DNA of 64,000 bases, taken from positions 38,895,656 to 38,959,655 of the forward strand of contig CM038709.1 in NCBI GenBank assembly GCA_021613375.1, read 5' to 3'. This DNA is from Megaleporinus macrocephalus (lineage: Eukaryota; Chordata; Actinopteri; Characiformes; Anostomidae). Below the pieces are notes generated by a model that made no database searches, was not told the DNA's origin, and worked only from the letters and a program-made list of their open reading frames with translations. Made by a program: the position numbers and the translations under genes. Shown here piece after piece: positions 206-32,694 of this stretch; position 1 is the stretch's first letter; the number at the start of each line of letters is the position of its first letter.

Positions 206-369
206 GAAGAGGTGGGATTTCAGCTTATGAATCCATCAGAGCCATCATCACTGGACTGGAGAACCATTTGACTCGGCTGAGTTCCTCTTGGCTGAGGACG
301 ATAACTGTGGTTGCATTTGATCAGATCATTTGGAGCACCTTTCGTGATTATTTCAGGGAGAGAAACAAG
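206..369 (+). CDS. parp14: Macrodomain C-terminal exon
   Basis: The exon follows a TGCAG acceptor and reads RGGISAYESIRAIITGLENH, then a strand of the type TITVVAFDQIIWSTF. This is the last helix and strand of a macrodomain, the ADP-ribose-binding fold. The donor (AAG|GTTTTA) is weak. This exon ends in phase 0 while the next recognised exon needs phase 1, so its 3' end or the next exon is uncertain. Confidence 0.7.
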
Positions 370-3300
370 GTTTTATTGAATCATTCACCATCACAATTCA
401 TTCAAAGTATAGCTTTTGGTCTTTTGGTAAATATATAGTAGAGTCCATTAACAACAATGCCTCTACATTGTTTTCTAGTATATATATGTGTGAAAAATAT
501 AAGCTTGAATATATGAATTTTATTATTTCGCAATATTAATATTTGGTATGTCCCTATTTTCTTTGATGAAACAACCTAAGAGTTTTCTGAAGATATATAT
601 ATGCTCACCTCCTTGTAGCTACACTCTTTCTCCATTACATCAGTTCATCAGCTCCACTTACCATATAGGAGCACTTTGTATTTCTACACCTACAGACTGT
701 AGTCCATCTGTTTCTCTGTATACTTTGTTACCCTGTTCTTCAATGGTCAGGACCCCCACAGGACCACCACAGAGCAGGTACTATTTAGGTGGTGAATCAT
801 TCTTAGCATTGCAGTGACACTGAAAACTCCAGCAGCACTGTCTCTGATCCCCACTCACACCAGCACAACATACACTAAGGCACCACTGCAACATCAGTAT
901 CACTACAGTGCTGAGCACCCAAATAATACCTGCTCTGTGGTGGTCCTGTGGGGCCTCTGACCACTAAACAGTTAGTTTACATTTCATTAACTCAAAAAGT
1001 CAAATCAAATCAATTTCTAAAGGTGGCATATGCAAGTTGGGACCACCCACTAAGTAATTGTTTTTTTTGGTTTTTTTTTTTCATTTTTCGAGCAGACCCT
1101 CACTGGAACCATGACAGCATATACAAATCAAGGTTTGCTTTATCTTTGAGTTGTTAAAATAGACCTTAAGTAACTAATCTCATCTCCTTTATGATGGAAA
1201 TAAATATGAATGTTCAACTCAACTTACAGTCCGAATCAAAGACGTCACAGTTGAGATCAAAAAAGGCGACATCACTAAAGAAACTACACCAGCCGTAGTC
1301 AACACGACCAACAGAGAAATGAACTTGAAAACAGGTTAGTTTAGTCCGTATTTACTGCTTATTCCAGAAATCATGATGTTTGTTGTGTTATGCAGTACAT
1401 TATTCTCAGTTAATGTTAAGTTAATGTTGCCAGGTGTTTCAGGAGCCATGATAAGAGCAGCTGGACCTTCTGTTGAAAAGGAGTGCCGACAACTCGGTAA
1501 GGATTTGATTGTCCATTTGATGCTGCTTTGGATAATTTGGGACTTCTCTTATGATTGAGGAAAGGTTTGGAATCACTTTATTAATGATTTTTGTTATTTT
1601 ATATACAGCAGCAAGGTGAAAATGAATGAACACATTCTGTCTAGAGAACATACTCTCAAATGGCACATTTCTATTTATTTGCTGATTTTAAAATATGCCA
1701 AAGAATTAAGAAAACATAGAAGGCGATGCACTGTGCAACTTTTGCATTTGCCGCTTTTTCTGTTTTATTTTTTCTAAAATGTGAAATCAGCACATAAGCA
1801 GTTCTTGTGCAGCGAAACCGTGCAGACGTGTTCAAATTATTGGAATCATTTGACTGACCAAATTGCTTTCACCTTACTGAAGACATTAAAAATGTTTGAG
1901 CAGCAATTCCAAACCTTTGAGTGCTGAAGTCCCAGATAAACCTGGTGTAGGAAAGAGAACTGCAGGCCTTCACTTGTTCCTGCACAGCAAAAACATGCCC
2001 GTGTCTTTTCAGCTCCATTGCAGGGTGACACGGTTGCTGTGACCAGTGGTGGAAACATGCGGTGTGATAACATCATCCACATGATTGGACCCCACTCCGC
2101 TGCCGAGGCGAGGTTACGGGTGAAGAAGGTGCTGGAGAGGTGTGAGCAGAAGAAAATCAGCGCCGTGTCCTTCCCTGCTGTGGGCACAGGTAGGAACTGC
2201 AGGCTGAAAAACACTGAAGGGACATTTCAGCCTAAAACTAGCACTTCATATGTTATTTGTAATGTTGTTCAGTATTCAGTAGTGCAGCATTATAGTCCTC
2301 AGCCTCACTACAATACCCAGTATGCACCATTGAGTACGTCCACCAAAAATGCAAAAAAAAAAAGAGAAATATGTATCTTTATTTTTGCCTGTTTTTATTT
2401 TTCTACATCGTTTGAACACAACAGCTGTGTATATCCTGTGAAAGTTTCATCATGGATGGACCAATAGAAATGCTCCAAAATAGCTTGGAAAAAATAATTG
2501 TTTCATTGACTTACATTAAAAGTACAGAATGCCTTTTGGTTATTATCATTGGATTATTATGGGAGATTATGGTAGTTTAAACTGTCCCTCTCACCTTCAA
2601 GATACATCATCAAAAATGGCTTTCATAGTGCTTATATTAGAAAACCTCACTCTAGACCAGTGGTCCCAACCCTGGTCCTAGAGGACCCCCTGCTCTGCAC
2701 ATTTGCTGTGTCCCCAATACACCTGGTGCTGCTAAATCCTTCCTGAGCATGTGTGTTTTGGCAGGATAAGCCAAAAATGTTCAGGGCTAGGGGGCGTTCA
2801 GGACCAAGGCTGGGAACCACAGGTCTAGGCCCCACTAGGAGGCTAGTATGCATCGAAATAGATGTTAAAATTGTTACCTTTTTATTTTAGCCCTCTGCGC
2901 CTTTTTAATACCTACATTATGTTTGTAAAACAGCTGTTTTTTATATTTTTGTTGGTTTAGATTTCTCTACACGAACAAGGCAGCTTCCTTGTACACTGTG
3001 TAAAACAGAAATGCTTCAAATTAGCTTGGAATAAAACCTGTCTTCATTCACTTACATTAAAAGCTATGATTGGTTTTGAAGATGCATATTTTTCCACTGG
3101 ATATCAACAGTGAGAATAATTTTAATTGGATGGAGATTTATCACTCTAACAGTTTCTCTGTGTTTAAGGTGGAGGTGGTCTTGAGGGTGAAGAAGCAATG
3201 ACCGCCATGCTGGAGGCGTTTGAAGATCATCTATCTCAGCGGTCATTCACTGCTCTCAAACTCGTCTATGTTGTTATTGACCGAGATGAAGTCCTACAAG

Positions 3301-6300
3301 AGTTCCAGCGAGGTCTCAGAGAGTGGAGCCCAGACACCCAGGTAGAAAACATCAAGCTTCAGGAAACAAGAAGAACAGAAATCATGATTTATTAAAATAA
3401 GAAATACTGTAATGCAATATTACTCTACACTACACTATAAACATATACTATATTGCCAAAAGTGTTCACTCACCCATACAAATCATTGAATTCAGGTGTT
3501 ACAATCACTTCCATGGCAACAGGTGTATAAAACCAAAAACAAAGACATGCAGACTGCTTCTACACACATTAGTGAAAGAATGGGTCTCTCTCAGGAGCTC
3601 GCTGAACTCCAGTGTGGTACCATGATAGGAACCACAGCAGCTCAGCCACGAAGTGGTTGCTGGGGGGCTTTGTACGCAGAGGTCACCAACTTTGAAGACT
3701 TGAAAAGCCAGGCCTTCTCGTTCAACATCAGTGTCTGACCTCACAAATGTACTTCTGGAAGAACTGTCAGTCAAAAACTGACTTCCATAAACACTGTGTG
3801 GAAAGCTTTCCAAGTTGAAGCTGTTATAGCTGCAAAGGGTGGGCCAATATTTTATTAAACCCCATGGATTAAGAATGGGACGTCACTCAAATTCATATAA
3901 TGAGCAAATACTTTTGGCAATACAGTGTATTAAGGTATTTTCACAAAAAAATAAAAAAAATTATCCCTCCAAGTCAAATTATATGTTTGGTTTGAGTTTG
4001 TTGTGATTATGAGCACTGTCGCCTCACAGCAAGACAATCTGGGTTCAATTCCCAGTCCGGGTTGTTCTGTGTGGAGTGTGTATGTTCTCTCCGTGCTTGA
4101 GTGGGTTTCCTCCAGGTACTCCGGTTTCCTCCCACAGTCCAAAGACATGCATGTTAGGTTGATTGGTCACTCTAAATTGCCAGTAGGTGTGAGTGCCATG
4201 CGATGGACTGGAGAACTGGAGAACCCGCCCTCGCCCGATGACGCTGGGATTCGCCTCAGCCCCCCCGTGACCCCGACTATCAAAATTAAGTGGCAGATAA
4301 TGGATGGATGGATGTTGTGATTATGTACAATTTTGAGTTGAATATACTGAAAAGAAAAATAATCATATATAAACTTTGCCATAACTTTTGCACACATTGT
4401 ACAGCAAGTTAAAAACAGCCTTGTTAATTATGTTAATTAATAGAACAAGAATCTTTCAAGTCAACCCATTTTTATTACCCCATCAGGACAGTGGGGATGA
4501 GGACGGAGATGAATATGATGAAGAGGCCTGTTTGTCTGAAGAAGAAGACCAGAGAGCGTCCCATACCTTTCAGTGAGTTTTTAAGAGATTATTTATTTTT
4601 ACATTCAGTCATATGTATTCACATTATATTATTTATTATATTATTATATTTTGCATGAACTATTACACAGTCGTATGAGAATGCATGAAGTTCTGTGCAT
4701 GTGAAGGCAGTTTGACCCAGGGTTGCCCAGACTTGCAGTTTTTGAGGTCATGCATCTAATTTAACACCCCATGTCAAATCATATGTTTGGTTTGGGTTTG
4801 CTGTGAATGTTGTAGTGTAGGTGGCTTAATCCCATTTATTTTACTTTAAATTGTGTTTTGTATTGTAAATAGAGCTGCTCTTGGCTGAGCTAGTTTTATG
4901 TTCAGTTATGTTGCAAGTTATCCGGAGCCGCAGTGGTGAGGACGTAGTCTTGGTTCGGTTTATGAAGAAGGCAGCTCATAGTTCACCACATAGATAAAAA
5001 CTCTAACATTCCTTGACCGAGCAAAAGTGCCTAAACACCGACAGCACAGCCGTAACAACATAGACTGTAACAGCTTCCCATTGATTTTGAGGCTGTGTTG
5101 AGTGTTGGTTATTTCATTGCCCTGTACTGCCTGAAGATTCTCAGTTAACAACTCAAGTGTATTGGTCTTGGTTCTACACCCACGCAAGAAAACTCCAGAA
5201 ATATAATAAATCATAGAGAACTAAGATGCAACAATATGCTTTATTTTGAGTTTATTATATTAGCCAAAAAAATCTAATGTAAAGTCTTGTACAATTAAAA
5301 AAATTAAGTGTCCTGCGGCCTTACATTTTGAGTTAATCAGCAGAACAAGAATCTTTTCATTCAGCTTCTTTTTAAAGTTTAAATAACTTAAAATTATAAG
5401 ATAAAATAGAACAAATTTACATATAGTATGTGTTTTTAATTTTAAATTGCATTTACTGCCTGTAAACTTCAACCAACTCATAGCAGAAATGCAAAATCAG
5501 GTCCAACTGGTCACCTTCCTTTACTTATTTATAATGTTTCTCTATAATGTGTATTTGTTCAGGCATGCAGATCAGCTCTTCTGGGATCCAGAGACAGGAT
5601 TTGATGTGAGTACTATAACAATAACTCACTGCCTCTTAAAATCACACCATGATTTCTTCTGTGAAAAAGGCTGTTGAGGAACTGTCCATCAAAGAAATAT
5701 GTATTTCTTTTGCAATCATAGCTAAGATCATCTTGGGAGCCATGCATGCGAAATGTCTTGCTGTTGAATGTGCTGTTTCTTTTGTTTTGATTGTGTAAAT
5801 AATATCCTTGAGTCAGCCTCTGCAATCCTTTCAGCTGGAGAACTTGGACCCAGAACTGAAGACTTTGTTTTACATATGTGGTATCAGTGATGCTCAGCTT
5901 AAAGACAAGAAGACATCTAAGGTTATTTATGATTTCGTTGAGGAGAAAGGAGGCGTAGAAGCCGTCAAGGACGGGCTGAGGCGGAAAGGTGAGGACAGCA
6001 CACAATGCACACTGTGGAAGTGGAAGTTGTGAATTCTAAGCCATCCTAGGGATGACTGGGTTTCTGGTAGCTGAGGCACTATATTATCTGAAGTATTCAC
6101 TCATCGATCCAAACTATTGAATTCAGGTGTTTCAATCACTTTCATGGCCACAGGTGTATAAAACCAAGCACCTAAACATGCAGACTGCTTCTACACACAT
6201 TAGTGAAAGAATGGGTCTCTCTCAGGAGCTCAGTGAACTCCAGTGTGGTTCCGGGATGCCGTCTGTGCAACAAGTCCAGTCGTGAAGTTTCCTCACTACT

Positions 6301-9300
6301 TAATGGCGCATAGTGTGTAGGGGTCACCTACTTTCTAGAAAGTCAATCACAACAGACCTCCAAACTTCATGTGGCCGTCAGATTAGCTCAAGAACAGAGC
6401 GTAGAGAGCTTCATGAAATGGGTTTCCATGGCCGAGCAGCTGCATCCAAGCCTTACGTCACCAAGCACAATCGTCAAGCAAAGCGTCAGATGCTGTGGTG
6501 TAAAGCATGTTGCAACGGAACTCTAGAGCACTGGAGACGCGTTCTCTGGAGTGACAAATCACACTTCTTTGTTTGGCAATCTTATGGATACTTGTCTGGC
6601 TGTGTTGTGCCGAGTATAAAGTTTGGTGGAGTGGGTTGTTTTTCAGGAGTTGGGCTCAGCCTGTGATGTTCCAGTGAAAAGAACTCTTAATGCTTCAGCA
6701 AACCAGGAAATTTTGAAATTTCATGCTCCTGTTCCAACATGACTGCAGCCTGTGCATAAAGCAAGTTCCATAAAAACATAGATGAGCCAGTTTAGTGAGG
6801 AAGAACTTGACTGGCCTGCCTGTCCTCAACCCAATAGAACAGCTTTGGGATGAATTAGAGCGGAGACTGTGAACCAGGCCTTTTCGTCCAACATCAGTGT
6901 CTGACCTCACAAACGTGCTTCTGGAAGAACTGCCCAAAGTTTCCATAAACACACTTGAAGCTGAAGTTGTTATAGCTGAAAAGGGTGGGCCGACATCATA
7001 TTAAACCCTATGGATAAAGAATGGGATGTCACTCAAGTTCATATGTGTGTAAGGATAGATGAGCGAATACTTTTGGCAATATAGTGTATATGCAACTAAG
7101 AGAAGTCTTACTGGCTCATCCTCTTGGTATTACAAGGTTTCTTTTTTGAGTCTTGGTTCCTCTCTTCATGTTATTAAAAGGGTTTCTCCTTTTCAGTCTT
7201 TTCGGTAAAAGAGTTTCTCTATTTGAGTCTTTGATCATCTTCATGAGTCTTCTTTTATGCTCCTAGGGTTCCTCTCAGCAGTGTTTTTTTGTGTTCTGCA
7301 TAAAATGTTCCATGACTTTCGGAGCTGAATCATATTTGGCAGATGTGATGTGATAAGATGAGAAATATGATACATTCTGCTATAAGGTGCTATAAGATAT
7401 AATGTGCCTCCTGTGATTTAATGAGATATTATATTGCCAGTGCACTCTCCAGTTACAACCATATAATTAAACAAAACGTTTTGATAACTTTTGATAACAT
7501 TTTTGTTTATCCTGTGCAATCAGATGACACAATAGAAACTTTGGCCAAAATAGCACAAACAAAGAACAAGAAGAAGAAACACAAGAAAAAGAAGAAGAAG
7601 AAACAACTGAGCAAAACAGACATTGGTGGACCCCACAACTTCCAGTAAGTTTTTTCTTGAATTTTTGTTTTGTTGTTTTTTCATGCAGTGTATATGTCCA
7701 GATGCAGAGACCACCCCTAAATGTCAAAATGGCCAAAAAGAAACAAACAGTACCAGAATTCATTTTGATGCATGGCAGAGTTCAGATGGCATCATTTTAC
7801 TCGCTGTAACCAACAGCACCACCAGAGCAATCGTGTTCATTTTAAAACTAATCTAACCTGCCTTGTCTGAACTCCCCGTTAATTAATTTTGGGTTAATGT
7901 GGATCGTAACGAACTTCTAAGAAGTGTGGAAATATCCCTACAGGAACACCTACAGAGACACAGATATCCCTACAGAGATATAAGTATCCTTACAGAGATG
8001 TAGGTATCTCTACCAGAGATATAGGTATCCCCACAGAGATACAGTCATCTTTACAGAGACACTGATATCCCTATAGAGATACAGATATCCCTACAGAGAC
8101 ACTGATATCCCTATAGAGATACAGATATCCCTACAGAGACACTGATATCCCTACAGAGATACAGATATTCCTACAGAGAAACAGATATTCCTACAGAGAT
8201 ACAGATATACTTACAGAGATACAGGCATCTTTACAGAGACACTGATATCCCTACAGAGAAACAGATATCCCTACAGAGATACAGGTATTCCTACAAAGAT
8301 ACAGATATACTCACAGAGATACAGATATACTAACAGAGATACAGGCATCTTTACAGAGATAATGATATCCCTACAGAGAAACAGATATCCCTACAGAGAT
8401 ACAGGTATTCCTACAAAGATACAGGTATTCCTACAAAGATACAGATATACTAACAGAGATACAGATATACTTACAGAGATACAGGCATCTTTACAGAGAC
8501 ACTGATATCCCTACAGAGAAACAGATATCCCTACAGAGATACAGGTATTCCTACTGATGTTTATTCTTCTTCTGTGACGACGCGCTGTTGATAGCTTAAA
8601 GAAAAATTCTGCAGATACCAACTTAGTTGTAAATGAATTTATTATACAAAAAAGTATAGCATCTTATCTGACATCCGACGTCCAATCTTCTGATGCCAGA
8701 GAGAGGCCTTCTCTTCCCCTGATCTGAAGACGCTCTGAAATGTGTTTGCCGAACCTCGTGTTTAAGTACCCCATTTACCATTCTGAGCCCCAAGACCTTT
8801 GGCCCAAATACATTCCCCATATGTGGTAGAAAAACAACGGCCCTACCAGATTTTACTAATACAAGCCAGATGTTTCCCAGACCTACCATACATTAACCTC
8901 TGACCCTAAGTCTCTCTGCAAACATTCTCTTTGCACAGCAAAAGATGAACGTCGGATTTTGTATGCAGCTTAATATATATATATATAATGTATGAATATA
9001 AAAATATATATGGAAAATTACACTACACTACAAAGATACAGATATACTAACAGAGATACAGATATACTTACAGCGATACAGGTATCCCTACAAAGATACA
9101 GATATACTAACAGAGATACAGATATACTTACAGCGATACAGGTATCCCTACAAAGATACAGATATACTAACAGAGATACAGATATACTTACAGCGATACA
9201 GGTATCCCTACAAAGATACAGATATACTAACAGAGATACAGATATACTAACAGAGATACAGGCATCTTTACAGAGACACTGATATCCCTACAGAGAAACA

Positions 9301-12300
9301 GATATCCCTACAGAGATACAGGTATTCCTACAAAGATACAGATATACTAACAGAGATACAGATATACTTACAGCGATACAGGCATCTTTACAGAGACACT
9401 GATATCCCTACAGAGAAACAGATATCCCTACAGAGATACAGGTATTCCTACAAAGATACAGATATACTTACAGCGATACAGGTATCCCTACAAAGATACA
9501 GATATACTAACAGAGATACAGATATACTTACAGAGATACAGGCATCTTTACAGAGACACTGATATCCCTACAGAGAAACAGATATCCCTACAGAGATACA
9601 GGTATTCCTACAAAGATACAGATATACTTACAGCGATACAGGTATCCCTACAGAGATACAGATATACTTACAGAGATACAGTCATCTTTACAGAGACACT
9701 GATATCCCTACAGAGAAACAGATATTCCTACAGAGATACAGATATCCTTACAGAGATACAGGCATCTTTACAGAGACACTGATATCCCTACAGAGACACT
9801 GATATCCCTACAGAGAAACAGATATCCCTACAGAGATACAGGTATTCCTAAATAGAAACAGATATACTGACAGAGATACAGATATACTTACAGCGATACA
9901 GGCATCTTTACAGAGACACTGATATCCCTACAGAGACACTGATATCCCTACAGAGAAACAGGTATCCCTACAGAGATACAGGTATTCCTACAAAGACACA
10001 GATATACTAACAGAGATACAGATATACTTACAGTGATACAGGTATCCCTACAGAGATACAAGTATTCCTACAGAGAAACAGATAGAGATACAGACATACA
10101 TATATACTTACAGAGGGAATGTGATATCCCTATAGAGATACAAATATCCCTACAAAGATACAGGTATTCCCACTGAGATACAGATATCTCTACAGAAATA
10201 CAAATATCCCTACAGAGATACAGATAACCCTACAGAGACACTGATATCCCTACAGAGATCCAGGTATCCCTACAGAGATACAGATATCCCTACAGAGATA
10301 CAGATATTCCTACAGAGATACAGATATACTCACAGAGATACAGATATACTCACAGAGATACAGATATACTAACAGAGATACAGATATACTAACAGAGATG
10401 CAGATATACTAACAGAGATGCAGATATACTTACAGAGATACAGATATCCCTACAGAGATACAGATATTCCTACAGAGATACAGATATCCCTACAGAGATA
10501 CAGATATTCCTACAGAGATACAGATATACTAACAGAGATGCAGATATACTAACAGAGATACAGATATACTAACAGAGATACAGATATACTTACAGCGATA
10601 CAGGTATCCCTACAAAGATACAGATATACTAACAGAGATACAGATATACTTACAGAGATACAGGCATCTTTACAGAGACACTGATATCCCTACAGAGAAA
10701 CAGATATCCCTACAGAGATACAGGTATTCCTACAAAGATACAGATATACTAACAGCGATACAGGTATCCCTACAGAGATACAGATATACTTACAGAGATA
10801 CAGTCATCTTTACAGAGACACTGATATCCCTACAGAGAAACAGATATTCCTACAGAGATACAGATATCCCTACAGAGAAACAGATAGAGATACAGACATA
10901 CAGATATACTTACAGAGGGAATGTGATATCCCTATAGAGATACAAATATCCCTACAAAGATACAGGTATTCCCACTGAGATACAGATATCTCTACAGAAA
11001 TACAAATATCCATACAGAGATACAGCTATACTCACAGAGACACAGATCTCCCTACAGAGATATAGGTATCCTACAGACATACAAGCATCCTTACAGAGAC
11101 ACTGATATCTCTACAGAGACACAGATATCCATACAGAGATACAGATATACTTACAAGGATACAATCTGTTAAAATTAAAGCTGTACAAAAGGCTAAAGAT
11201 GGACACAGTACTAAATTATGTTTAGTTGTTATGCTTTTTACCAAATGCTGCATAATTAATAACTGCTGGCCATTTTGACTCAAAATTGTTTCTGCTATTA
11301 GCAGTTATGTAGTCTGAAAAAAATGCTGTATGTGCTTATTTTTTAGCTTTATTCATCTCCTGACTTCTAACATGATTTCTTATTGCAATACTAATAATGT
11401 CACTTCTGTCATCCCTTTCTGTGTGTTTCTCAGACACGTTGGCCATGTGGGCTTTGATGTGAGTACCTTATACACACTTGACACATATGCTTACTCGTAC
11501 GCACACTACTACCAAAATAATTCCAGGATCATTATGATTAGAAAGGTCTTGTTGCAAGCTGTAAAGTTTGGAAAATGTTATTTCTCATGGATCAACTGCT
11601 TTTGATTTCAGGTGGATAACCTGGACCCTGAACTGAAGAACTTGTTCGACATGTGTGGCATAAGTGATGCGCAGCTTAGAGATAAGAACATATTTAAGGT
11701 CATTTGTGACTTCATTGAGAAGAGGGGAGGAGTGGAGGCTGTCAAAGAACAGCTACGGAGAGGTAACTCGTAATAATACGTAATAATGAGTCATAGCTTT
11801 AAATAAATGTTTTGCACCTTTATTTACAACCCCAATTCCAACAAAGTTGGGTCTTTAAAATGTAAATAAATGTAAATAAAAAGTGAATGGAATGATTTGA
11901 AAAACTCATAGGCCCATATTGTATTCACAGTAGAACATATAGCACATACTGAAAATGATTAACTCATTTAAAACTTGATGACAGCTAAAAAAAAGTTGGG
12001 ACAGGGGCAACAAAAGGCTAGAACATTAAGTGGTATTAATAAATAACAGCAATTTTAAGAAGTAACTTGCAACTAGGTCACATGACCGGGTATAAAAAGA
12101 GCATTCCAGAGAGGCAGAGAGAAGCAAAGAGGGGCCGAGGTTCACCAATCAGCGAAAAACTAGAACTATGTAAAAATCGTGAAGACATTAGATATCCTAC
12201 CATCTACAGTATGCCATCAAAAGATTCAGAGAATCTGGGAAATACCTGTGCGCAAGGGGAGAAGACTGACGGTCAGTATTGGATGCCCATGATCCTCAGG

Positions 12301-15300
12301 CCCTCAGGCAGTATACATTGCAACAGGCATGTTTAACAGGCATTCTATACTGGAAATCACTGCATGGGTTCAGGAACACTTCCATAAATCATTGACTGTA
12401 AACATAGTTCACTATGCAATCCACAAATGCAAGTTAAAGCTGTATCATACAAAAAAAGACACCATATGTCAAACCTATCCAGAAACGCTGCTATCTTCTC
12501 TGGACCAAAGGCTGTAAATAGAGAAATAGAGATGTATCTCTCACTAAAAATGAGAAATCAGTTCTATGATCAGATAAGTCTTCTCTACAGTGGAAACTAC
12601 GAATGCTATGTCCTGCAGACTCAAGAGAAGAGGGCTGCATTAGTGCTTATGGCGCGGGCAGGAAAAACACTATCAATGCTGAACAGTATACAGAGGTTTT
12701 AGAACCATATATCTTCCTATCCAGACAGCGTCTCTCACAGGGAAGGACTTGTATATTTCAGCAAGACAATGTTAAACTACAGATTGCATCCATCCCAACA
12801 GCATGGTTTCACAAAAGAAGAGTCTGGGAGCTGAACTGACCGACCTGCAGTCCAGACCTTTCACCAACAAAATATTTGGCGCATCATGAAATGAAAAATC
12901 CAGCGTATACGATCCAGGACTGTTAATCAACTAGTGTCCTACATCAGACCAGAATGGGGCAACATTCCTCTCCCAAAGCACCAGCAACTGGTCTCCTCAC
13001 TTCCCAGACATTTACAGGCTCTTGTTAAAAGAAGAGTAGATGCTATATAATGATAGACATGGCCCTGTCCCAACTTTTCTGAGATGTGTTGCTGCCATAA
13101 AGTTCTAAATGGGTTAATAAATGGGTTAAAAATTAATAATTTCATTTTACAATGTAAAGGGGGACAAGGGGACTTTTGATGGATTTTGGGACACATCCAG
13201 TGACCATACAAATTGCTCAGCTTGGCCATTTCTCCATAGCAGACCAATATGTAGCTCCTCCTTCAAAAATTAGTCAGTCCGGTTACCTCACAGTGGTCTC
13301 TGGTGGTTTCGGAATATCCATCAACCCAGTAAAGCAAACATCTCACAGGGTGCACGTGTGCTCCCAGGTCTCTCTCTGAGCCATGTCCTTATCCTCAGGA
13401 CATCTAGGGTTAGGGTTAGTATTCAATCCTCCTCCCCAATGTATGGCTTTACTATTCTTAGCAATTCTGGCATCAGCCACTCTCCTCTTCTATTGCCACC
13501 CAATGTGCCTTGTAGGGTGCTGATTGTTTATGCTGAAACCTTAACTTTTATCCTCAGTCAAGCATATGGTCTGTCCACCAGGGCTTCCTCTTTTGCTGTC
13601 CTGTAGCTGGGCTCCATGATGAGCCTCTTCAAGCTGCCTCTTCCACTGTTTCTTCCTCCTCTGTCCAAAGACTTTTGTCTTTGAGGTTGTGGAAGCTCCA
13701 TGCCTCTTCTGGCACCTAGTTGGCGCTATCCCAGAAGACATGGCATACATTGTGTTTTCAGCGAATGCTCTTTTACTGAAATAGAAGCAGGGTAGAACCA
13801 TCACTCAGTGCTGACTGAAGAGGCACACGCCACAGAAAGCTGTGAGGATCTTAGACATGTGTTCTTGACATATATGCTTTGAATCTGTTTTAATATAAAA
13901 AATATATAACTCTAAATTGAAATTGCAGTCAGCCAAACCTCAAGTCCAACTGTTGTTTTTGCCGGCCTGAAGACCAGTGTTCCGCGATGCTGCTGAATGG
14001 GGTGAAGAACCATCAAGTCAAATTCATGCATGGGCATAGCAGTGCACTTTTTCTGGTTGCCATATGGATCCTGAATGTCTTAATGTGTGAAGTTTTCTTA
14101 TCGTGCCAGTTTTAGATTGCTCTATGCAGATTCACAACTATATTTTTTTCTCAAGCCTTACACAAGAGGCAGAAAACTATACTGGATATTCATTTTATTG
14201 ATAAATTATAGTTTGCTTCGTATAAGACATTAAAAAATATATTATTATTTCTTCTGTACAGAACCCAGGCCTACTCCACCAAAAGAAACAAACCCAAACC
14301 CAGCCAATCAGCCAGTGTGTCTTGCTACTGATACAGCTGCAGTAACTTTCCCTGTAACGACTGTAGAGGTGTACGGAACCTCTCCTGCTGATGTTGCCAA
14401 AGTCAAGAAGCTCCTGGATGACCTTATCTCTGAAGAATGCACCAGCAGAGACGTCCAGTCCAGTTACCTGGCCAACCTTCAAGAAGCTGATAAGGAGGCC
14501 ATCGTCGCCCTTAGCAAGAACAACGAAGTGCAGATACTTGTGGCTTCCTCAGACATGCTAACTGTTTCAGGGAAGAAGGACGATGTGTTAGATACAGTTT
14601 TGAACATCTCATCCTTCATCCAGGCTGCCATGGAGAGAGAAGCCCAAGAAAGTGAGAAGAGTAGACTGAGTGAGACTTTGTGCTGGGAGGTGGCTGAAGG
14701 AGAGACTTGGGTACCACTGGACTCCAACATTAGCTACCAGCTGGAGTTAGCCTTTCACAGAAAAGAGCAGAACTTTACCTACGAGGAGGATGGAGAGGTT
14801 TACACAGTGGATTTCAAGCAGCTGATGCGGGTAAACAGCAGGGGAATGTCCTGCAAGATAAAGAGAACCCTGATTGGTGACCCTGACACAGGTAAAGGTC
14901 TTCATGATTTGATACAAGAGGCTCTGGTTATTGAGACATACACTAACAATGATCAGGCGAAAAGGCATTAGTGACAGAAAAGGCAGAGCTACAGCCAATT
15001 TCATCTTAAAAGGCTACAGACAAATGTATCAGACAAAAATAACCTGGGTGAATACAAAAACGGTGATTTCATTTATTAAGGAAAAAAAGCTATCCAAACC
15101 AACCTGGCCTTATGTAAAAAAGAAATTGCCCCCATTCAATTAACCACATTTTTTTTTTCACTAGCCACACCCAGGCCTGATTACCGCCAGACCTGTAGAA
15201 TCAGGAAATCACTTAAATAGAACCAGTCTGACAACATGATGTAGGCCAAAAGATCTCAAACAGCAAAACAATATGCCCCTATCTAAAGAAATCCAAGAGC

Positions 15301-16990
15301 AGATGAGAAACAGTCATTGACATAAAAAGACTACAAAGCCATTTCTAAGGTTTTGGGGCTCCAGTGAACCACAGTGAGAGCTATTATCCACAAATACAGA
15401 AAATGAACCTTCCCAGGAGTGGCCAGCCTACCAAAATTACTCCAAGAGTACATCGACGACTTATCGAGAAGGTCACAAAAGAACCCTGAACAACATCTAA
15501 AGCACTGCAGGCCTCACTTGCCTCAGAAAGAGACTGGGCCAAAATGGTATTCATGGGAGATAAAATAAAAATATTTTAAAAATAAAAATAAAAAAAATAA
15601 TAATAAAAAAAAAAAAAAAAGGCCCATCTCACATTTGCCAAAAACGTCTTGATATTCCCCAGACTTTTTGGGAAAAAATTTTGTGGACTGATGAGACAAA
15701 GGCATTTCACACCAAACCACTCACAATTATTTTGTTTACATGTTGTCTACTTAATTATGCAGACGTTTTTTTATCTCTGTAGCTCCATCCCTGGTTCTAC
15801 AATAGTTGTATTGTTATGGTTGCAAGTTGCACGTTGCGAATTGCGAAGTGTTATTTGTTTTTTGCTTTCTGCCAGACCTTCGCCATGTAACTCATCCCGC
15901 AGCTTTCAAAATATCAATGCCGCTCCAACTCCAGATTGTCCGGTGCTTTTTGATTATATGCACAGATTCCAGTAAACAACAAAATTTTCCCAAATTTTTT
16001 CCCATAGAGAATGAATAGGATAGAAATATTCATGTCAATCAACTGAACTTCTGCTCGACCAACAGACCCCATGTCACATACACTGACTCAGGGCAGACGC
16101 CCGACCATGACTGCAGTGTTGGTTTGATCGACACTCGTCTGTTTGTCGTTTTTTCCCAGCCCTCCTTTTCCCCCCTATGGAGTCCCATTCATTTTCAAGC
16201 GCACTCAAATATGGTTTCGGTAAACTTACAGCCACCAAACTGCATGTACTCACTCAGGGCAGGTCCTCAAACACACTGTCCTGCACTCCTGTACTTGTCG
16301 TTTATTCATCCCTTGTTCCTTGCACTACTTAAGCTGCGCAACCATCCTGCGTTTCACTTTTCTAGTTAATACTGAGTTGCAGTTTAATTGAGTTTACAAT
16401 GTTTAATAGTAAAATACTGTTTAACTAAACAAACATAAACATAACTTAATATAAATCTAAAATAATTTTAGCTGTCATTGTCAGATATCAGGCCCTTGAA
16501 AAGCAACAACATTTAATACCGTTCAGGTCCTAGTGCAAGACCCTTATTCTCTGATTAGACTCCTGAAGGCCTCTGTGCAGTGCAGGTTGGCCAGTGGAGG
16601 GATGTCACTGGACTTGTTCATGAAATGAATCCCTCAGGACAGCTATACTTTATTTCTGATCAGATCTGCTGTACTAAACATCTGCAACTCTGTTCCTCCA
16701 GCTATTATTCCGCCGCCACCAACATGGACTAAAATGGAAGGACGGGACTTGGAAGTAATTCTGCTCACTCCAGATTCAGAAGAGTACAAGAAAGTAGAGA
16801 CAGCTTTTCTGAGCTCCAGTCAGCACCAGGATGTAGATCCTGTTCAGGTTGTGCAGGTAAGAAAACACATGAAACCTGCCTCTGTTGAAAATCATTGGAA
16901 AATAATTTTCTTAATTCAAGTTCAATCATTAAAAAAATGGTTTAGCAGTCATGTGTCATCCATGTTTTTATGGTTTTTGTATGTAATTGT

Positions 16991-17026
<36 letters not shown>

Positions 17027-20000
17027 TTCAGGCTTTTATTATATCCAGCTACTTGTTTATCTGTTGCTATAATTTAATAAATAGATTTTTTATGTAGTTC
17101 CGTTTTATTACAACATATAGCAAGCCCTAATATATTATCTAGTTACTCAATAAATAAAGTTTTACAATATAGTATATTCACTGCATATGACTGTGAGCAT
17201 GAGCATTTAACAAAAACTCCTCAAGCGTTGTTAAGTAAAGCCAGTGGTTCAGTGTCTTGTACAGTCAAGGTTAAAGGTTAAAGCTCTGCTGGGTTCCTGG
17301 GTTCTGTGTGGTGCCTTTATTTTCATTAATTTGTTACCTGTTGTTATGGGCATGGATTTTCTTGTGTGTTTGTGTGTTCTTTCGATGTTTCTGTCCACTG
17401 TTTATAGTCCTGTCCGGTATTCCTGTTTGCTTCACTCCAGAATCCGTTCCATAGTTTGGCTCCTCCTCCCCTTTAAAAGAGGCGCCGGCTTCTCACACCC
17501 CTTAGGAAGACCTCATTCAGATTGTGACTTGTTGTTGAATACTCTGTTTGCTCTGCTTGTTATCGACCCTGCTAAATCTTTGACTTTTGATCTTTTGCCT
17601 GCCCCTTTTGTTTTGATTGCTGTTTGTATATATTGTATAATTGTAAATAGAACCGGTTGTAGAGAGTGACTGCCATTTTGTTTGGGGAGTGGGTTTTTGT
17701 CTGTGTTTTGAGTAGCTAGCGAGTGAGGCTAGCACTGTGTCTTTGTCTTGTCTTTTGTTGTAGGTTAGTCAGTTTCTGTCAAATAGTTAGTGTGGGGTTT
17801 GTTTGTTTTGGCCTGGGTCACTCTTGAGGTCATTATCTGGTTCACCTGAAAATAAGCCACGTTACACTTTTGTAAACTGAGTAAACTTGTCTTGTCTGTC
17901 ACTTTAACAATTTCCCATTTTTCATTAGATGTGTTGCGGCCTGACCTAGACCGGGTCGTAACACTGTCTGTAAGTGGCAGAGCTAAAGTTTTAAAGGTTA
18001 CATTAACTCTGACTAAATATTGACCCATTAAATTTACACAGAGGTGTCAAGTAATGAAGTACAAATAATTTATCTTACTTTTTATCTTACTCTTATCTTA
18101 ATTTTGGTTATTTTCCAGTTACTTTACTGAAGTAATTATTTTTCAGCTGACTTTTTACTTCTACTCCTTACATTTACACTCCATTATCAGTACTTTCTAC
18201 TCCTTACATTTACACTCCATAATCAGCACTTTCTACTACTTACAGTTACACTCCATTATCAGTACTTTCTACTACTTACATTTACACTCCATTATCAGTA
18301 CTTTCTACTCCTTACATTTTAAAACTAGCCTCGTTACTCCTATTTCATTTCAGCTTGTTTTCTTTCACATACATTTACATTCCAGTAAAGATTATTGATA
18401 ACATGCCTTTGAAGTTTGACTTTGTGCTCCATTACAATACTTACAGACATCACTAGACATCATATCTTCTGCTCCATCAAACACATGTTAATGCTCAGTA
18501 GTACACAGATATGCTTCTTTAATATATTTACATTGTACTAAACTACATTCAGTTTCAATGGGCGTATATGCAGCTAAAACAGGAAGCCTAGCGCATCCCA
18601 AATTTATCAACACTAACATCTTAATATATATATAATGTTATATAATATAACATTATAGTCATTATGGTTTTAGAAGAATGGGGTTTTTGGGGAGGTGGGC
18701 TAGTGCACTATAGACCCCTGTGGTGCAGCCTAAGCTTTTGTCCTTAATGCCATTTTATTTCCCTTACATTACTTTTACTTTATACTTTAAGTAATTTTGA
18801 AAGCAGTACTTTTATACTTATACTGGAGTAATAAGCTTGAGTTGATACTTCAACTTCTACAGAAGTATTTTTAAACCCTAGTATCTATACTTCTACCTGA
18901 GTAATGATACATAAGAAGACAGGTTACCTTCTTGAATCTCTGGAACTGAAGCCAATTGTTAATCCCTTTATCACAAGCTCACTTCAGTTTGAGGTAAAAT
19001 TGTTTCCAAGTGTTTGTGATAAATCACTTGCATTATGTTTTCTATTATTTCAGATTCGCAGAATTCAGAATAAAGGCCAGTGGCAGGCATACTCTGTGCT
19101 GAAGCAGGGGGTGGATAAGAAATACCCCAACCAGAACAATGAGCAATTTCTCTATCATGGCACCTCTAAAGAAATCTGCCAGAAAATCAACAACAATGGC
19201 TTCAACAGGAGCTTCTGTGGAAGAAACGGTATGTCCTATTTCAGATGTACAGAGAGCAAGCGATGTGTCCAAGAAGTAATATCCATAAAAAGTATCAGGG
19301 GCTCGAGTGGGACTTGTTTTCATATCAGGAGTTGCATGATGCACACCATCCCAACACTACAGACACACACACATAAAAATGGAAGGCATTGCATCAAGCA
19401 AGGGACTGCGGGACAGTGAGTGCCTTACATATTCTGATATTTCAACACTGATACAAGATAAAAGCAGCAAATCAGAAAGCTGGATTTACATAAACACTGC
19501 AGTGCCTTTACTGTAAAGCTGATCAGCTGAGATGTACAAATGGGACAGCTTAGCAGTACAAAGAAAAATAAAACAGCAAATATAAAACTAAAACTTAATT
19601 AATGGCAGATATGAAACATGTGTATGGTCCGTGTCTTACCTCTAATGACTCGATGCATTGAAGTTAAGCTTGATTTTTGCTTTGAAATCTTTATAAGAAC
19701 TGTGTCAGCTTTTGTATTCAAAGAGCCCTCTTTGTAAAATTCACAAAATACCAAACACAACAACTTGTATTTTGCCATTTTTGGATTGCAAACTTTTATT
19801 TTGCAAGTTTAGGAGGAGTAGAACATGACATAGGGGTAGCATCTGTTCATAACTTTATGTAAACTGTATGCAGTGCTCTAATAATAAAGTAATACACTCT
19901 GTAAAGTTGTCTGTTGTGTCAACCAGTACTAGATTGGATGCTGTGGCCAAATTCACATCATTGTGCTAAATATTCTCGAGGTTAGCTTCTTAACTGAATT

Positions 20001-20725
20001 TCCATTCCGCCTTAAATGGGGCATCAGCTGGCATGACGGCATCCATCCAAGCATCTGATCGCAGCTCCTAAATCATTAAAAAAAAGGAGCAGGAAATGAG
20101 AATAAAAACTTTATCTAATCTCTATCTCAGTAATGGCAGCAAGCCTAGGGTGTATCAATAGAAGCTGGAGCCATTGGTTTAATGCCTAATTATTACAAAT
20201 ATAAACTTGGATGTAGCATTTATAGTTTAGGTGTTCTTTTGCCCATAGGCAGGAGCTTATACATTAGAGCTAACCATCCCAAAACTTCACCAAACTCTCA
20301 CAATTACCCTCTCTGGCATTGACTAGGATGCTCATCAGGATATAACAGGGCTTCATTAACTCTAGCAGTGATAACTGTTTGCACTGATAGTTCCAAGATA
20401 TGTTCAACCCAACTTTCATGTCTTTTAAGCTGTCGTTCATGGTGAGGGCACCTACTTTGCCAAAGATGCCTGGTACTCCTGCCACGACCATTACTCAAGC
20501 CCAGATGAGAAGGGATTAAAGTACATCTACAGAGCCAGAGTTGTGACCGGATTGCCATGTAAAGGACGTAGAGGAATGAAGGAGCCGGACCCTTTGGACC
20601 CATACAATCCCCAAGCTGGTCTATATGATTGCGCTGTGAATGATCTGCAGAATCCATTCATCTTTGTGGTGTTCTGTGACGCGGGGGCTTACCCAGACTA
20701 TCTGATCGTCTTCAATAATGTGTGA
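206..20725 (+). CDS. parp14: PARP14-like macro-PARP with two WASP-type GBD modules (5'-partial)
   Basis: Exons read from the sequence: 206-369, 1230-1334, 1434-1496, 2013-2189, 3169-3341, 4487-4572, 5563-5605, 5835-5988, 7524-7644, 11434-11458, 11612-11762, 14262-14891, 16702-16856, 19054-19228, 20430-20725 (TGA at 20723-20725). All have AG acceptors and GT donors, and from 1230 onward every junction keeps one frame (about 784 residues). Domain order is macrodomain end, macrodomain, GBD-like 1, GBD-like 2, KH-like, WWE, PARP catalytic. Family knowledge: PARP14-type proteins are interferon-linked mono-ADP-ribosyltransferases that act in antiviral and antibacterial defence. Macro, KH-like, WWE and catalytic parts match that family; the GBD modules in the linker are not part of mammalian PARP9/14/15 as I know them. 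The 5' exons lie left of the window. Exons 206-369 and 1230-1334 do not join in phase, so one exon or the true donor is missed there. Fish have several parp14 paralogues; which one this is cannot be told. Confidence 0.88.
370..1229 (+). repeat. Foldback (inverted-repeat) element in intron
   Basis: Between about 640 and 965 two arms are inverted copies: GACCACCACAGAGCAGGTA-type sequence near 763-782 and its reverse complement near 930-950, with the CAGTGACACTGA/CAGTATCACTAC pair inside. Related arms occur at 21180-21540 and 27680-27900. This is a non-autonomous hairpin element of the kind common in fish. The rest of the stretch is AT-rich intron, including a poly(T) run near 1061-1090. A missing small exon may also hide here. 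Confidence 0.6.
1230..3341 (+). CDS. parp14: Complete macrodomain in four exons
   Basis: Exons 1230-1334, 1434-1496, 2013-2189 and 3169-3341 join in phase. Key blocks in order: VEIKKGDITKETTPAVVNTT (start of the fold), GVSGAMIRAAGPSVEKECRQ (glycine-rich ADP-ribose loop and helix), NIIHMIGP, ISAVSFPAVGTG (phosphate loop) and GGGLEGEEAMTAMLEAFEDH with a closing strand. This is the usual macrodomain order, and the four-exon layout is typical of macro-PARPs. It should bind ADP-ribose on protein targets. Whether it also hydrolyses ADP-ribose cannot be told by eye. Confidence 0.88.
2640..2835 (+). repeat. Short palindromic MITE
   Basis: Ends are inverted copies of one sequence: CTCTAGACCAGTGGTCCCAA at 2650 and TGGGAACCACAGGTCTAGGC near 2811-2830. 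It lies in the macrodomain intron and has no coding content. Family name not assigned. Confidence 0.6.
3446..3931 (+). mobile_element. Tc1-like element, internally deleted
   Basis: Terminal sequences TATTGCCAAAAGTGTTCACT at 3452 and the inverse TACTTTTGGCAATACAGTG near 3909-3927 frame a copy that keeps only the two ends of a longer Tc1-like element, seen also at 6076-7088, 43478-43605 and 44880-45420. The transposase middle is gone, so it cannot move by itself. Confidence 0.75.
3985..4320 (+). mobile_element. tRNA-derived SINE-like element
   Basis: The head contains GAGCACTGTCGCCTCACAGC and a B-box-like GGTTCAATTCC, as in tRNA-headed fish SINEs. The body holds TTTCCTCCCACAGTCCAAAG, and the tail ends in TGGATGGATGG. 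It sits in the intron before the first GBD exon. Confidence 0.75.
4487..5988 (+). CDS. parp14: WASP-like GBD module, copy 1 (acidic lead, degenerate CRIB)
   Basis: Exons 4487-4572, 5563-5605 and 5835-5988. The first encodes an acidic stretch (13 D/E and one R in 29 residues) ending SHTFQ. The second gives HADQLFWDPETGFD, aligning with the WASP CRIB tail HxxHVGWDPxTGFD but without the second His, Val and Gly. The third gives the GBD core (NLDPELKTLF, CGISDAQLKD, KVIYDFVEEKGGVEAV), close to N-WASP. The N-WASP GBD binds Cdc42 and its own VCA helix. Since the CRIB core is lost, copy 1 probably does not bind Cdc42 but may keep the hydrophobic helix-binding surface (inference). Splice phases inside the module (2, 0, 1) equal those of copy 2. 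Confidence 0.86.
6076..7088 (+). mobile_element. Tc1-like transposon, degenerate
   Basis: The left end near 6076 and the right end (TACTTTTGGCAATATAGTGT, 7069-7088) match the 3446-3931 copy, but this one retains fragments of a transposase gene broken by frameshifts and deletions (for example FHGRAAASKPYVTKHN at 6420-6470). It is a dead copy inside the intron between the two GBD modules. Confidence 0.8.
7524..11762 (+). CDS. parp14: WASP-like GBD module, copy 2 (polybasic tract, intact CRIB)
   Basis: Exons 7524-7644, 11434-11458 and 11612-11762. The first encodes a lysine tract (KNKKKKHKKKKKKK) followed by DIGGPHNFQ, like the N-WASP basic region and CRIB start. The 25-bp second exon gives HVGHVGFD, completing a full CRIB (I-x-x-P-x2-F-x-H-x2-H-V-G), though the WDPxTG segment of N-WASP is absent. 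The third gives NLDPELKNLFDMCGISDAQL and the remaining GBD helices (ICDFIEKRGGVEAVKEQLRR). It is about 70% identical to copy 1 over 50 residues (35 matches by hand count). The module starts and ends in phase 1, the form suited to exon shuffling and tandem duplication. Cdc42 and PIP2 binding is plausible from the motifs but not shown. Confidence 0.88.
7927..8554 (+). repeat. 20-bp minisatellite, array 1
   Basis: Tandem copies of a 20-bp unit close to ACAGAGATACAGATATCCCT, with variants such as TCTTT and ATACT at the end of the unit. It lies in the intron that splits the CRIB motif of GBD copy 2. The reading frames through it carry no protein meaning. Confidence 0.92.
8555..9027 (-). mobile_element. 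Possible solo LTR inserted in the minisatellite
   Basis: A 473-bp non-repetitive block begins TGATGTTT and ends ACTACA (TG...CA). It is flanked on both sides by CTAC (8551-8554 and 9028-9031), as expected for a 4-bp target duplication. On the minus strand it has a TATA-rich stretch near 8973-8990 and AATAAA near 8637-8642. No internal coding region is present. A solo LTR is the best reading, but the family is unknown. Confidence 0.5.
9028..11165 (+). repeat. 20-bp minisatellite, array 2, with 60-bp higher-order unit
   Basis: This is the same 20-bp unit as array 1. Around 9030-9240 three 20-bp variants (ATACTAACAGAG, ATACTTACAGCG, ATCCCTACAAAG) recur in fixed order as a 60-bp higher-order unit. 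Longer blocks containing GGCATCTTTACAGAGACACT recur from 9260 to 10870. The array ends about 270 bases before the 25-bp CRIB exon. Confidence 0.92.
11826..13160 (+). mobile_element. Degenerate Tc1/mariner-type transposon
   Basis: The left end is CCCCAATTCCAACAAAGTTG, with CCCTGTCCCAACTTTTCTGA near the right end. Between them are decayed transposase blocks in shifting frames, including a TINAEQYTEVLEPY-type stretch and FQQDN near 12757-12772, followed by CSPDLSP near 12850. Several stops and frameshifts make it inactive. A related element is at 39167-39982. Confidence 0.75.
13161..14261 (+). other. Intron sequence, nothing identified
   Basis: No exon is needed here, since the exons ending at 11762 and starting at 14262 join in phase. 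A stretch at 13380-13800 has frames open for 60-87 codons on both strands with no family I recognise; it may be an old repeat fragment. A two-copy GGGTTA run near 13408 is too short to mean anything. Confidence 0.5.
14262..14891 (+). CDS. parp14: KH-like and WWE domain exon
   Basis: A single 630-bp exon joined in phase to the second GBD module. After a Pro/Asn-rich linker comes a KH-like region of the PARP14 kind (TTVEVYGTSPADVAKVKKLL to about residue 125 of the exon). Then follows a WWE domain: CWEVAEGETWVPLD, YQLELAFHRKEQNFTYEEDG, VYTVDFKQLMRVN and KIKRTL. WWE domains bind ADP-ribose or iso-ADP-ribose units. The order KH-like then WWE just before the catalytic domain is the PARP14/PARP11-type layout. 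Confidence 0.9.
15070..15725 (+). mobile_element. Truncated Tc1-like transposon
   Basis: The start of the element and the beginning of a decayed transposase gene can be recognised (TTCCCAGGAGTGGCCAGCCT near 15410-15430, CATCGACGACTTATCGAGAA near 15452-15471). It is interrupted by A-rich sequence at 15560-15620 and ends without the second half of the gene. Confidence 0.6.
16702..20725 (+). CDS. parp14: PARP catalytic (ART) domain, H-Y-L type
   Basis: Exons 16702-16856, 19054-19228 and 20430-20725. After PPPPTWTKMEG comes the fold start (IRRIQNKGQWQAYSVLK), then the NAD+-binding FLYHGTS (triad His), the GEGTYFAKDAWYS strand (triad Tyr) and the C-terminal AYPDYLIVFNN, where the third triad position is Leu rather than Glu. 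H-Y-L is the signature of mono-ADP-ribosyltransferases of the PARP14 class, so it is not expected to build chains. The domain is complete to the stop codon and shows no breaks. Introns hold MITE and simple-repeat sequence. Confidence 0.93.
16993..17028 (+). repeat. (TTTA)n microsatellite
   Basis: About nine TTTA units directly after the first catalytic-domain exon. A similar array lies at 41697-41731. Confidence 0.9.
17073..18030 (+). other. Intron sequence, nothing identified
   Basis: This part of the first catalytic-domain intron has open frames of up to 141 codons with no recognisable family. A hydrophobic frame at 17244-17669 has no support from splice phase or domain content, so it is left uncalled. 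Confidence 0.4.
18039..18905 (+). repeat. MITE with internal 34-bp tandem repeats
   Basis: The ends are GGTGTCAAGTAATGAAGTAC-like and ACTTCTACCTGAGTAATGAT-like, similar to a common hAT-type fish MITE. Inside, ACTTTCTACTCCTTACATTTACACTCCATTATC-type units of about 34 bp repeat at 18150-18315. No coding content. Confidence 0.55.
19229..20429 (+). other. Last intron of the macro-PARP, nothing identified
   Basis: AT-rich sequence between two catalytic-domain exons. No repeat family or gene could be recognised by eye. Confidence 0.5.
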
Positions 20726-23203: not shown

Positions 23204-23500
23204 AAATTGGGTGGTAATCAGATGGTAATCACACCAAATATTACAGAGGTTATGAGAAGTAGCATTTGACAGCCCCCAAATAGCAAGGAACTCCCAGAGG
23301 AAGCCTGCCAAACCCAGGATATAACGCCAGATGAAACATGGAGACAGGCCTATAAGACAGTGCAGTTGCCCAGTCTAAGTCAGACCATGTTAGACCATTC
23401 ACAGATCTTCTCAGATCACGTCTGTGCCGTGGTATCCTCAAGAATAAAGCTTGTACTCTGAACTGGTCTTCATTTTGATGGCAAGAAAAGAAGGTACAAC
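23204..23500 (+). mobile_element. LTR-like repeat copy 1
   Basis: Contains CTTGTACTCTGAACTGGTCT after an AATAAA (near 23442), resembling the R/U5 part of an LTR. A second copy at 60478-60745 aligns along its full length (CACACCAAAT..AGAGGTTA at the start, TACTCTGAACTGGTCT near the end). No internal genes were seen, so a solo LTR or fragment is likely. Confidence 0.45.
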
Positions 23501-32608: not shown

Positions 32609-32694
32609 GTAAATCTAAAAACACATATTTTCTTTTATGATTAATAATGATAAAAACAATACATTTTAACTTGTTTGTCTTTCTGTTTTCATAG

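Follow-up and report, generated by a model that had tools for sequence, protein, structure and literature searches.

A 64,000-nucleotide stretch of the Megaleporinus macrocephalus genome (the window) contains a predicted PARP14-family gene with two tandem copies of an N-WASP-type GTPase-binding region, placed between the last macrodomain and the KH–WWE–catalytic part. Sixteen GT-AG exons on the + strand (206–20725) join into a single 850-residue open frame; the gene's 5′ part lies outside the window, and the exons are known from the genomic DNA of one species, as a gene prediction. The joined protein starts with a macrodomain, continues with two N-WASP-type GTPase-binding domains (GBDs) and a WWE domain, and closes with the PARP catalytic domain and the stop; Pfam finds Macro, PBD (twice), WWE and PARP within this one protein. 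The combination of a PARP14-family gene with two N-WASP GBDs, read from the sequence, is not described in the papers among the matches listed. This agrees with the statement of the initial annotation that no mammalian PARP with a CRIB or GBD is known: no PARP of this kind was found among the matches listed, which were papers on PARPs only.

Domains of the predicted protein

The gene is identified by its encoded domains as a PARP14-family member in fish. Its catalytic domain matches Pfam PARP (7.7e-18), with PARP15 (5.1e-48) and PARP14 (1.9e-41) as the best PDB matches. The triad of the mono-ART type is H-Y-hydrophobic; in the alignment with PARP15 the HGT and YFA stretches are conserved and IFVVF is aligned as well, and the residues present predict a mono-ART-type enzyme. 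This domain is encoded by exons L (16702..16856, start of the ADP-ribosyltransferase region), M (19054..19228, HGT motif) and N (20430..20725, domain end and TGA stop). N-terminal to it is a macrodomain (Pfam Macro 4.5e-18; best PDB match PARP14 4abk, 5.5e-32) that starts in exon A (1230..1334), continues through B (1434..1496) and C (2013..2189), and ends in D (3169..3341), which closes in phase 0. Further upstream are exon e1 (206..369), the tail of a preceding macrodomain, and a short linker exon, e2 (1096..1132, phase 0 to 1); part of exon D aligns with positions 205–360 at 29% identity (E 0.009), which places the end of this second macrodomain at 206–369. PARP14-type proteins begin with RRM and KH domains and have three macrodomains, and the 5′ part of the gene, where these would be encoded, is beyond the window. 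Exon K (14262..14891) opens in phase 1 and encodes a weak KH region, at the place next to WWE that KH7/KH8 take in PARP14-type proteins, and the WWE domain that precedes the catalytic domain. WWE reaches 28.7 bits in Pfam (cut-off 21.1) and KH_PARP14_8 reaches 22.5 bits, under its cut-off of 27; the structure prediction of the exon has a mean pLDDT of 52.1, and the KH–WWE exon has no PDB match at 0.001.

The six GBD-coding exons lie at 4487–11762, where the initial annotation had located them. Copy 1 comprises exons E (4487..4572, phase 0 to 2), an acidic stretch before the domain, F (5563..5605, phase 2 to 0), which encodes HADQLFWDPETGFD, and G (5835..5988, phase 0 to 1), the helical core. 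Copy 2 comprises exons H (7524..7644, phase 1 to 2), a lysine-rich basic region and the CRIB start, I (11434..11458, phase 2 to 0), a 25-nt exon encoding HVGHVGFD and the CRIB end, and J (11612..11762, phase 0 to 1), the helical core, in which the peptide originally quoted for this copy is found. Copy 2 has a PDB match to N-WASP (E=1.5e-32) and copy 1 a match to WASL (E=6.4e-29); chance similarity is ruled out by these values (1e-32 and 1e-29). The PBD profile (PF00786), whose joint occurrence with PARP and macro had been proposed as a check, is indeed found with both: it matches two stretches of the joined protein (2.9e-14), and alone copy 1 scores 24.2 bits and copy 2 37.4 bits (cut-off 21.3). 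Weak Pfam matches to Flavodoxin_2, DUF6075, Ferlin_C, DUF4604 and DUF6447 in the joined protein and GBD pieces were below cut-offs and were discounted. Pattern searches for GBD relatives confirmed none of 8 and then 42 stretches in viral contigs, and none of 174 in bacterial and archaeal contigs.

Splicing across the GBD exons

Each of exons E–J is preceded by AG and followed by GT. Because D ends in phase 0, K starts in phase 1 and the phases of E–J agree, all seven junctions from D–E to J–K are in frame, as had been claimed for the borders with the macro exons before and the KH–WWE exon after. On a crude, approximately weighted splice score applied to 1–21000 (1076 GT and 1543 AG sites), all six E–J donors fall within the top 6% of GT sites and all six acceptors within the top 12% of AG sites. 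Poor scores occur at four borders of the gene model, none within E–J: the e1 donor (42nd percentile), the B acceptor (62nd) and the AAG acceptors of D and N (both 71st). When exon skipping was enumerated, 7 of the 64 subsets of E–J joined D to K in frame, and all seven retained G or J; the GBD exons are thus not all skippable, since every in-frame path holds a GBD core exon.

Each GBD copy has two internal introns, whose positions and phases match between the copies; on these grounds a retrocopy was rejected. Together with the seven in-frame junctions and the lack of a D–K frame without G or J, these introns give good support to the prediction of one gene rather than an inserted retrocopy.

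Comparison of the two GBD copies

The description of the copies as nearly matching the N-WASP GBD holds for both helical cores (each has 40 of 52 residues in common with N-WASP), but the CRIB consensus is present in copy 2 only and WDPxTG in copy 1 only. The CRIB consensus used here is I-[SG]-x-P-x(2-4)-F-x-H-x2-H-[VI]-G. Copy 2 carries it as I-G-x-P-x2-F-x-H-x2-H-V-G (IGGPHNFQHVGHVG, at residue 367), with 6 of 7 consensus residues under the MAFFT gap and 7 of 7 after a shift of this gap by one residue. It also keeps a basic region (K/R at 14 of 31 upstream residues vs 10 of 18 in N-WASP), with Q where the KKR triad ends in a basic residue; it lacks WDPNTG and has F or a gap at the position of WASP Trp-252. 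Copy 1 keeps WDPETG and the core, has an acidic stretch upstream and, despite its PBD score, retains only 2 of 7 CRIB consensus residues, so that the usual mode of Cdc42 binding is to be expected of copy 2 at most. Against N-WASP 210–271, copy 1 has 45 of 62 residues identical without gaps, and copy 2 is about as close (44 of 62, 6 gaps). As both cores are equally near N-WASP, a split of roles depends on CRIB, basic region and WDPxTG alone; equal roles for both copies were set aside after this residue map.

The cores look old and constrained. Exons G and J differ at 36 of 150 sites (8, 7 and 21 at the three codon positions; dN 0.149, dS 1.41); 17 of the 32 changed codons are synonymous, and 35 of 50 residues are identical. 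In random-mutation simulations of the same size, none of the 5000 trials that started from G and one of the 5000 that started from J reached this identity; stops arose in 66–68% of trials. Part of the constraint could be older than the fusion. The dS of 1.41 makes a recent duplication unlikely; blastn between the introns of the two GBD units gave no similarity at a setting that also missed the G/J pair, with minisatellite self-hits dropped.

Possible roles of the GBDs

PARP14 is described with RRM, KH, macro, WWE and ART domains in two papers (PMC13224862; PMC10450202). The present protein resembles PARP14 and PARP15 in its macrodomain, WWE, mono-ART-type catalytic domain and PARP14 order, and differs in the two WASP-type GBDs between macrodomain and KH–WWE. 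With N-WASP (WASL) and WASP it shares the basic region, CRIB and autoinhibitory core, but here the GBD occurs twice and is embedded in a PARP. The joined protein ends in the PARP domain, without VCA (WH2, central, acidic): Pfam gives no WH2 or VCA match in it, and no WH2-like pattern occurs in the three + frames of 1–21000, so the fusion should not itself nucleate actin. WH1 is likewise absent from the Pfam matches of the 850 residues, the 5′ gene end lying beyond the window. An additional short WASP of some fish, S-WASP, is described as having CRIB and the autoinhibitory domain without CA (PMC3298513). It is similar to the present case as a WASP derivative of that composition; it has WH1 and lacks the basic region, whereas the present protein shows no WH1 and carries a basic region in copy 2. 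Split KH domains hold insertions in other PARPs, namely ubiquitin-interacting motifs in PARP10 and macrodomains in PARP9/14 (PMC10450202). The GBDs here seem similarly added to a split-KH insertion, the split KH being presumed; unlike in PARP10, the inserted module is of a Cdc42/VCA-binding type.

The explanation that we tentatively favor, at somewhat under an even chance for the whole, is that the GBDs form a targeting arm with divided roles on a mono-ADP-ribosyltransferase. An N-WASP-type GBD would have been gained by exon transfer and duplicated afterwards, and the copies would then have divided the labor. Through its basic region and CRIB, copy 2 would bind Cdc42-GTP at membranes. Copy 1, which has no CRIB and keeps WDPETG and the autoinhibitory core, would bind WASP-family VCA regions in trans, at their amphipathic C helix. 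The GBDs could in this way direct the transferase, along with its macrodomain reader, to places with active Cdc42 and branched actin, where substrates might be WASP-pathway proteins, or pathogens and effectors exploiting them. The proposal of the initial annotation that ADP-ribosylation is coupled to Cdc42 or actin nucleation is plausible. A literature search on PARP14 with focal adhesion and Cdc42 gave no paper with PARP14 among the matches listed.

Published data on WASP proteins bear on both proposed partners. The affinity of WASP for Cdc42 is still in the low nanomolar range for a 201–254 fragment made up of basic region and CRIB (PMC6166713), so the parts after CRIB are not essential for this binding in WASP. 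W252A costs WASP 19-fold, and the fragment still contains Trp-252 (PMC6166713); copy 2, which is without an equivalent of this residue, may thus bind Cdc42 more weakly than N-WASP. The VCA-binding region of N-WASP is 210–274 (PMC5217673), and the match of copy 1 (210–271) spans nearly the whole of it. A VCA peptide binds the isolated N-WASP GBD weakly (28.8 uM; PMC5217673).

Other explanations differ in what the GBDs would do. They could be a passive linker, translated and merely spacing or locating the enzyme after both copies lost partner binding, copy 1 through loss of CRIB and copy 2 of WDPNTG; the need for G or J in the D-to-K frame would keep frames open without any binding. We regard this as unlikely, because frame alone does not explain 17 synonymous codons among 32 or 35 of 50 identical residues at the observed dS, unless the constraint predates the fusion. 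Alternatively, the GBDs could be an integrated decoy that imitates the effector surface of N-WASP, so that a caught effector is ADP-ribosylated or betrayed and Cdc42 binding is incidental. The GBD region of N-WASP is a common bacterial effector target: EspFU (PMC2567903) and NpeA (PMC11253601) are reported to target it or its neighborhood, IcsA binds the VCA-binding part (PMC5217673) and SemD the basic region and CRIB, and the IcsA and SemD surfaces are both kept between the two copies together. PARP14 is itself described as a fast-evolving immune PARP (PMC13224862), and fish NLR gene pieces lie downstream. The two cores, however, show constraint and not fast change, and we consider the decoy quite unlikely; the same low probability applies to the wider suggestion that an immune enzyme of an animal contains a built-in N-WASP mimic, whose tandem GBDs would face pathogens with a Cdc42 surface and a VCA surface and would answer capture, or abnormal Cdc42/actin activity, with ADP-ribosylation.

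The GBD core is an autoinhibitory domain in WASP (PMC3298513; PMC5217673), and the GBDs here adjoin the KH–WWE–catalytic part. An internal switch has therefore been considered, in which a GBD would fold onto an amphipathic helix elsewhere in the protein (e.g., in KH8–WWE) and Cdc42-GTP would open it, gating the transferase as in N-WASP. No partner helix is recognized and exon K is predicted poorly, and this arrangement is distinctly doubtful. Very improbable is a nested WASP-like gene formed by the GBD exons within the PARP gene, an idea to which the S-WASP of some fish lends some weight. Both GBD ends splice in phase with PARP exons and the + strand of 1–21000 has no WH2-like pattern, grounds on which a separate gene was rejected; in addition, S-WASP lacks the basic region that is present in copy 2.

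The targeting of PARP14-type enzymes to substrates is poorly known, and this natural fusion names candidate partners: Cdc42-GTP, the VCA of N-WASP/WASP, and PIP2. If the targeting explanation is true, the fusion would connect ADP-ribosylation with the actin machinery hijacked by intracellular pathogens. A further suggestion would be that PARP14 can take up new modules where its macrodomains are inserted, much as ubiquitin-interacting motifs sit within the split KH of PARP10 (PMC10450202).

The introns carry further features on the + strand. A transposon copy with a transposase-like frame (6304–6663) lies in intron G–H (6078..7089), and an internally shortened copy in intron D–E (3447..3930) has 88% and 76% identity to its ends; we take both to be Tc1-like, and they bracket exons E, F and G. 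A repeat search found 20-bp minisatellite arrays in intron H–I (7949..11163, as 7949–8554 and 9029–11163). The fish NLR gene pieces lie 12 kb downstream.

Exon structure and domains of the PARP14-like gene

The PARP14-like gene (206–20725, + strand) was joined from 16 exons with GT-AG borders into an 850-residue open frame ending at TGA; this length is the part inside the window, as the 5′ end of the gene lies beyond its edge. The joined protein has Pfam matches to Macro (4.5e-18), PBD/CRIB in two stretches (2.9e-14), WWE (8e-6), and PARP (7.7e-18), and a KH_PARP14_8 match falls under the Pfam cut-off. WASP-type GTPase-binding domains (GBDs) share this predicted protein with macro and PARP domains, as the initial annotation had proposed. 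The macrodomain is nearest to that of PARP14 (4abk, presumably macrodomain 3; 5.5e-32), and the catalytic domain to those of PARP15 (5.1e-48) and PARP14 (1.9e-41); both parts look intact.

The inserted exons form two three-exon units, E-F-G (4487–5988; copy 1) and H-I-J (7524–11762; copy 2). Each unit has a phase 2 intron inside the Q codon of FQH, a phase 0 intron following FD, and a phase 1 intron at its end (past RRK in copy 1 and past RR in copy 2), and the start phases are unlike (0 for E, 1 for H). One open frame runs through E–J, which bears out the proposal that these exons splice in phase with the macrodomain and KH-WWE exons. Because exon D, the macrodomain end (3169–3341), ends in phase 0 and the KH-WWE exon K (14262–14891) starts in phase 1, their direct join is out of frame; among the 64 possible combinations of these six inserted exons, 7 restore the frame, each with G or J in it. 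As H-I-J begins and ends in phase 1, it can be skipped with the frame kept, making isoforms with a single GBD possible. Intron H–I is mostly occupied by two arrays of 20-bp minisatellites (30 units, 7949–8554; 107 units, 9029–11163) ahead of a 25-nt exon, and could affect the splicing of copy 2.

On a crude splice scale, the borders of E–J score well; the donor of exon e1 (206–369) and three acceptors (B, D, and N) score poorly. The e1 donor (AAG/gttttattg) is at the 42nd percentile, and the e1–e2 border may be placed otherwise.

Divergence of the two GBD copies

Copy 2 matches N-WASP at 1.5e-32 (6uhc) and copy 1 matches WASL at 6.4e-29 (9r3y). The description of both as nearly matching the N-WASP GBD holds for the cores, in exons G (5835–5988) and J (11612–11762), which are about equally close to N-WASP (40/52 each; over N-WASP 210–271, 45/62 identical in copy 1 and 44/62 in copy 2). 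The CRIB consensus, however, is matched in copy 2 but not in copy 1, which retains F and the first H and has lost I, P, the second H, V, and G. Of the 31 residues upstream of CRIB in copy 2, 14 are K/R, whereas the 19 aligned residues of copy 1 contain no K/R and 11 D/E. At the I/J exon border, the six-residue stretch WDPNTG is missing from copy 2, and copy 1 retains WDPETG. In studies of WASP mutants, Cdc42 affinity is reported to come chiefly from the basic region and CRIB residues (PMC6166713), and N-WASP 194/195–253 and 210–274 are described as the Cdc42 region and the region binding the helix of the C-terminal VCA, respectively (PMC5217673). Set against these regions, the residue differences make copy 2 look like a putative Cdc42 binder, perhaps weakened, which might bind VCA as well, and copy 1 like a putative pure VCA binder.

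Comparison of exons G and J over 150 sites shows 36 differences (8, 7, and 21 by codon position), with synonymous changes in 17 of the 32 changed codons (dN 0.149, dS 1.41; NG86). Their 35/50 identical residues were reached by equal numbers of random changes in 0/5000 and 1/5000 trials (starting from the two copies), and stops were introduced in two thirds of trials from either copy. No intron similarity between the units was found by blastn self-comparison, whose limited reach missed the G/J pair too. Taken together, these results make the duplication look old. If the copies stem from two WASP-type genes, the constraint is partly older than the fusion. Both copies depart from N-WASP in the same way at two residues, too few to decide the matter. 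The self-comparison also found two transposon copies in the same orientation (3447–3930, internally shortened; 6078–7089), which we take to be Tc1-like. They flank E-F-G on both sides, and possibly bear on how the unit moved, or lie there by chance.

Place among PARPs and possible function

The KH domain of PARP9 and PARP14 is described as split by a macrodomain-bearing insertion, and the split KH of PARP10 as containing ubiquitin-interacting motifs (PMC10450202). Lying between the macrodomain and the KH-WWE exon, the GBDs would fall inside this insertion. The fish gene would then differ from PARP9 and PARP14 in apparently holding GBDs there as well as macrodomains, and exon K might begin with the second half of the split KH. 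A single-sequence model of this exon (mean pLDDT 52.1) has a strand at 35–37 and a helix at 42–56, ahead of the KH8 match at 68–121.

The most economical reading is that the GBDs would recruit the protein to Cdc42-GTP and WASP-family proteins, positioning the transferase and macrodomain. They may instead be an integrated decoy aimed at effectors reported to target N-WASP (EspFU and NpeA among the matches listed; also IcsA and SemD). Two further rivals would make them an internal switch that Cdc42 opens, or simply a passive linker. Immune use of the fish gene is plausible because of its NLR neighbor and the reported immune record of PARP14 (PMC13224862, PMC4038475), of which extra copies are described in many fish genomes (PMC4038475).

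Among the matches listed from the PARP literature (titles and abstract starts, with most subscription papers outside this scope), none named a PARP carrying either CRIB or GBD, which is not proof of absence. In main text, the word start "crib" is absent from two PARP surveys (PMC4038475, PMC4245714) and "gtpase" and "rho" from a third (PMC10450202); a 2026 PARP14 review (PMC13224862) contains neither "fish" nor "actin". Fish PARP14-like database entries with such a domain may well exist, never discussed in print.

Neighboring genes and repeats

The NLR gene pieces (32654–40892) share the + strand with the PARP gene and follow it 12 kb downstream. They match NACHT, NOD2 winged helix, NLRC4 HD2, LRR_6, and FISNA, a NACHT-associated domain specific to fish (3.8e-23); the FISNA and NACHT matches suggest that the window is fish DNA. 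A UBX domain frame (52241–52477, − strand; 1.5e-9) and a lysine/glutamate-rich frame without Pfam match (55838–56065, − strand) are perhaps a single UBX-family gene. The reverse transcriptase frame at 22405–23217 (− strand; RVT_1, 2.8e-8) is also matched by ALKBH8_N (9.6e-11), probably a transposon part bearing that name. Repetitive frames on both strands at 46121–46865, seen in the ORF list only, are probably a further minisatellite.
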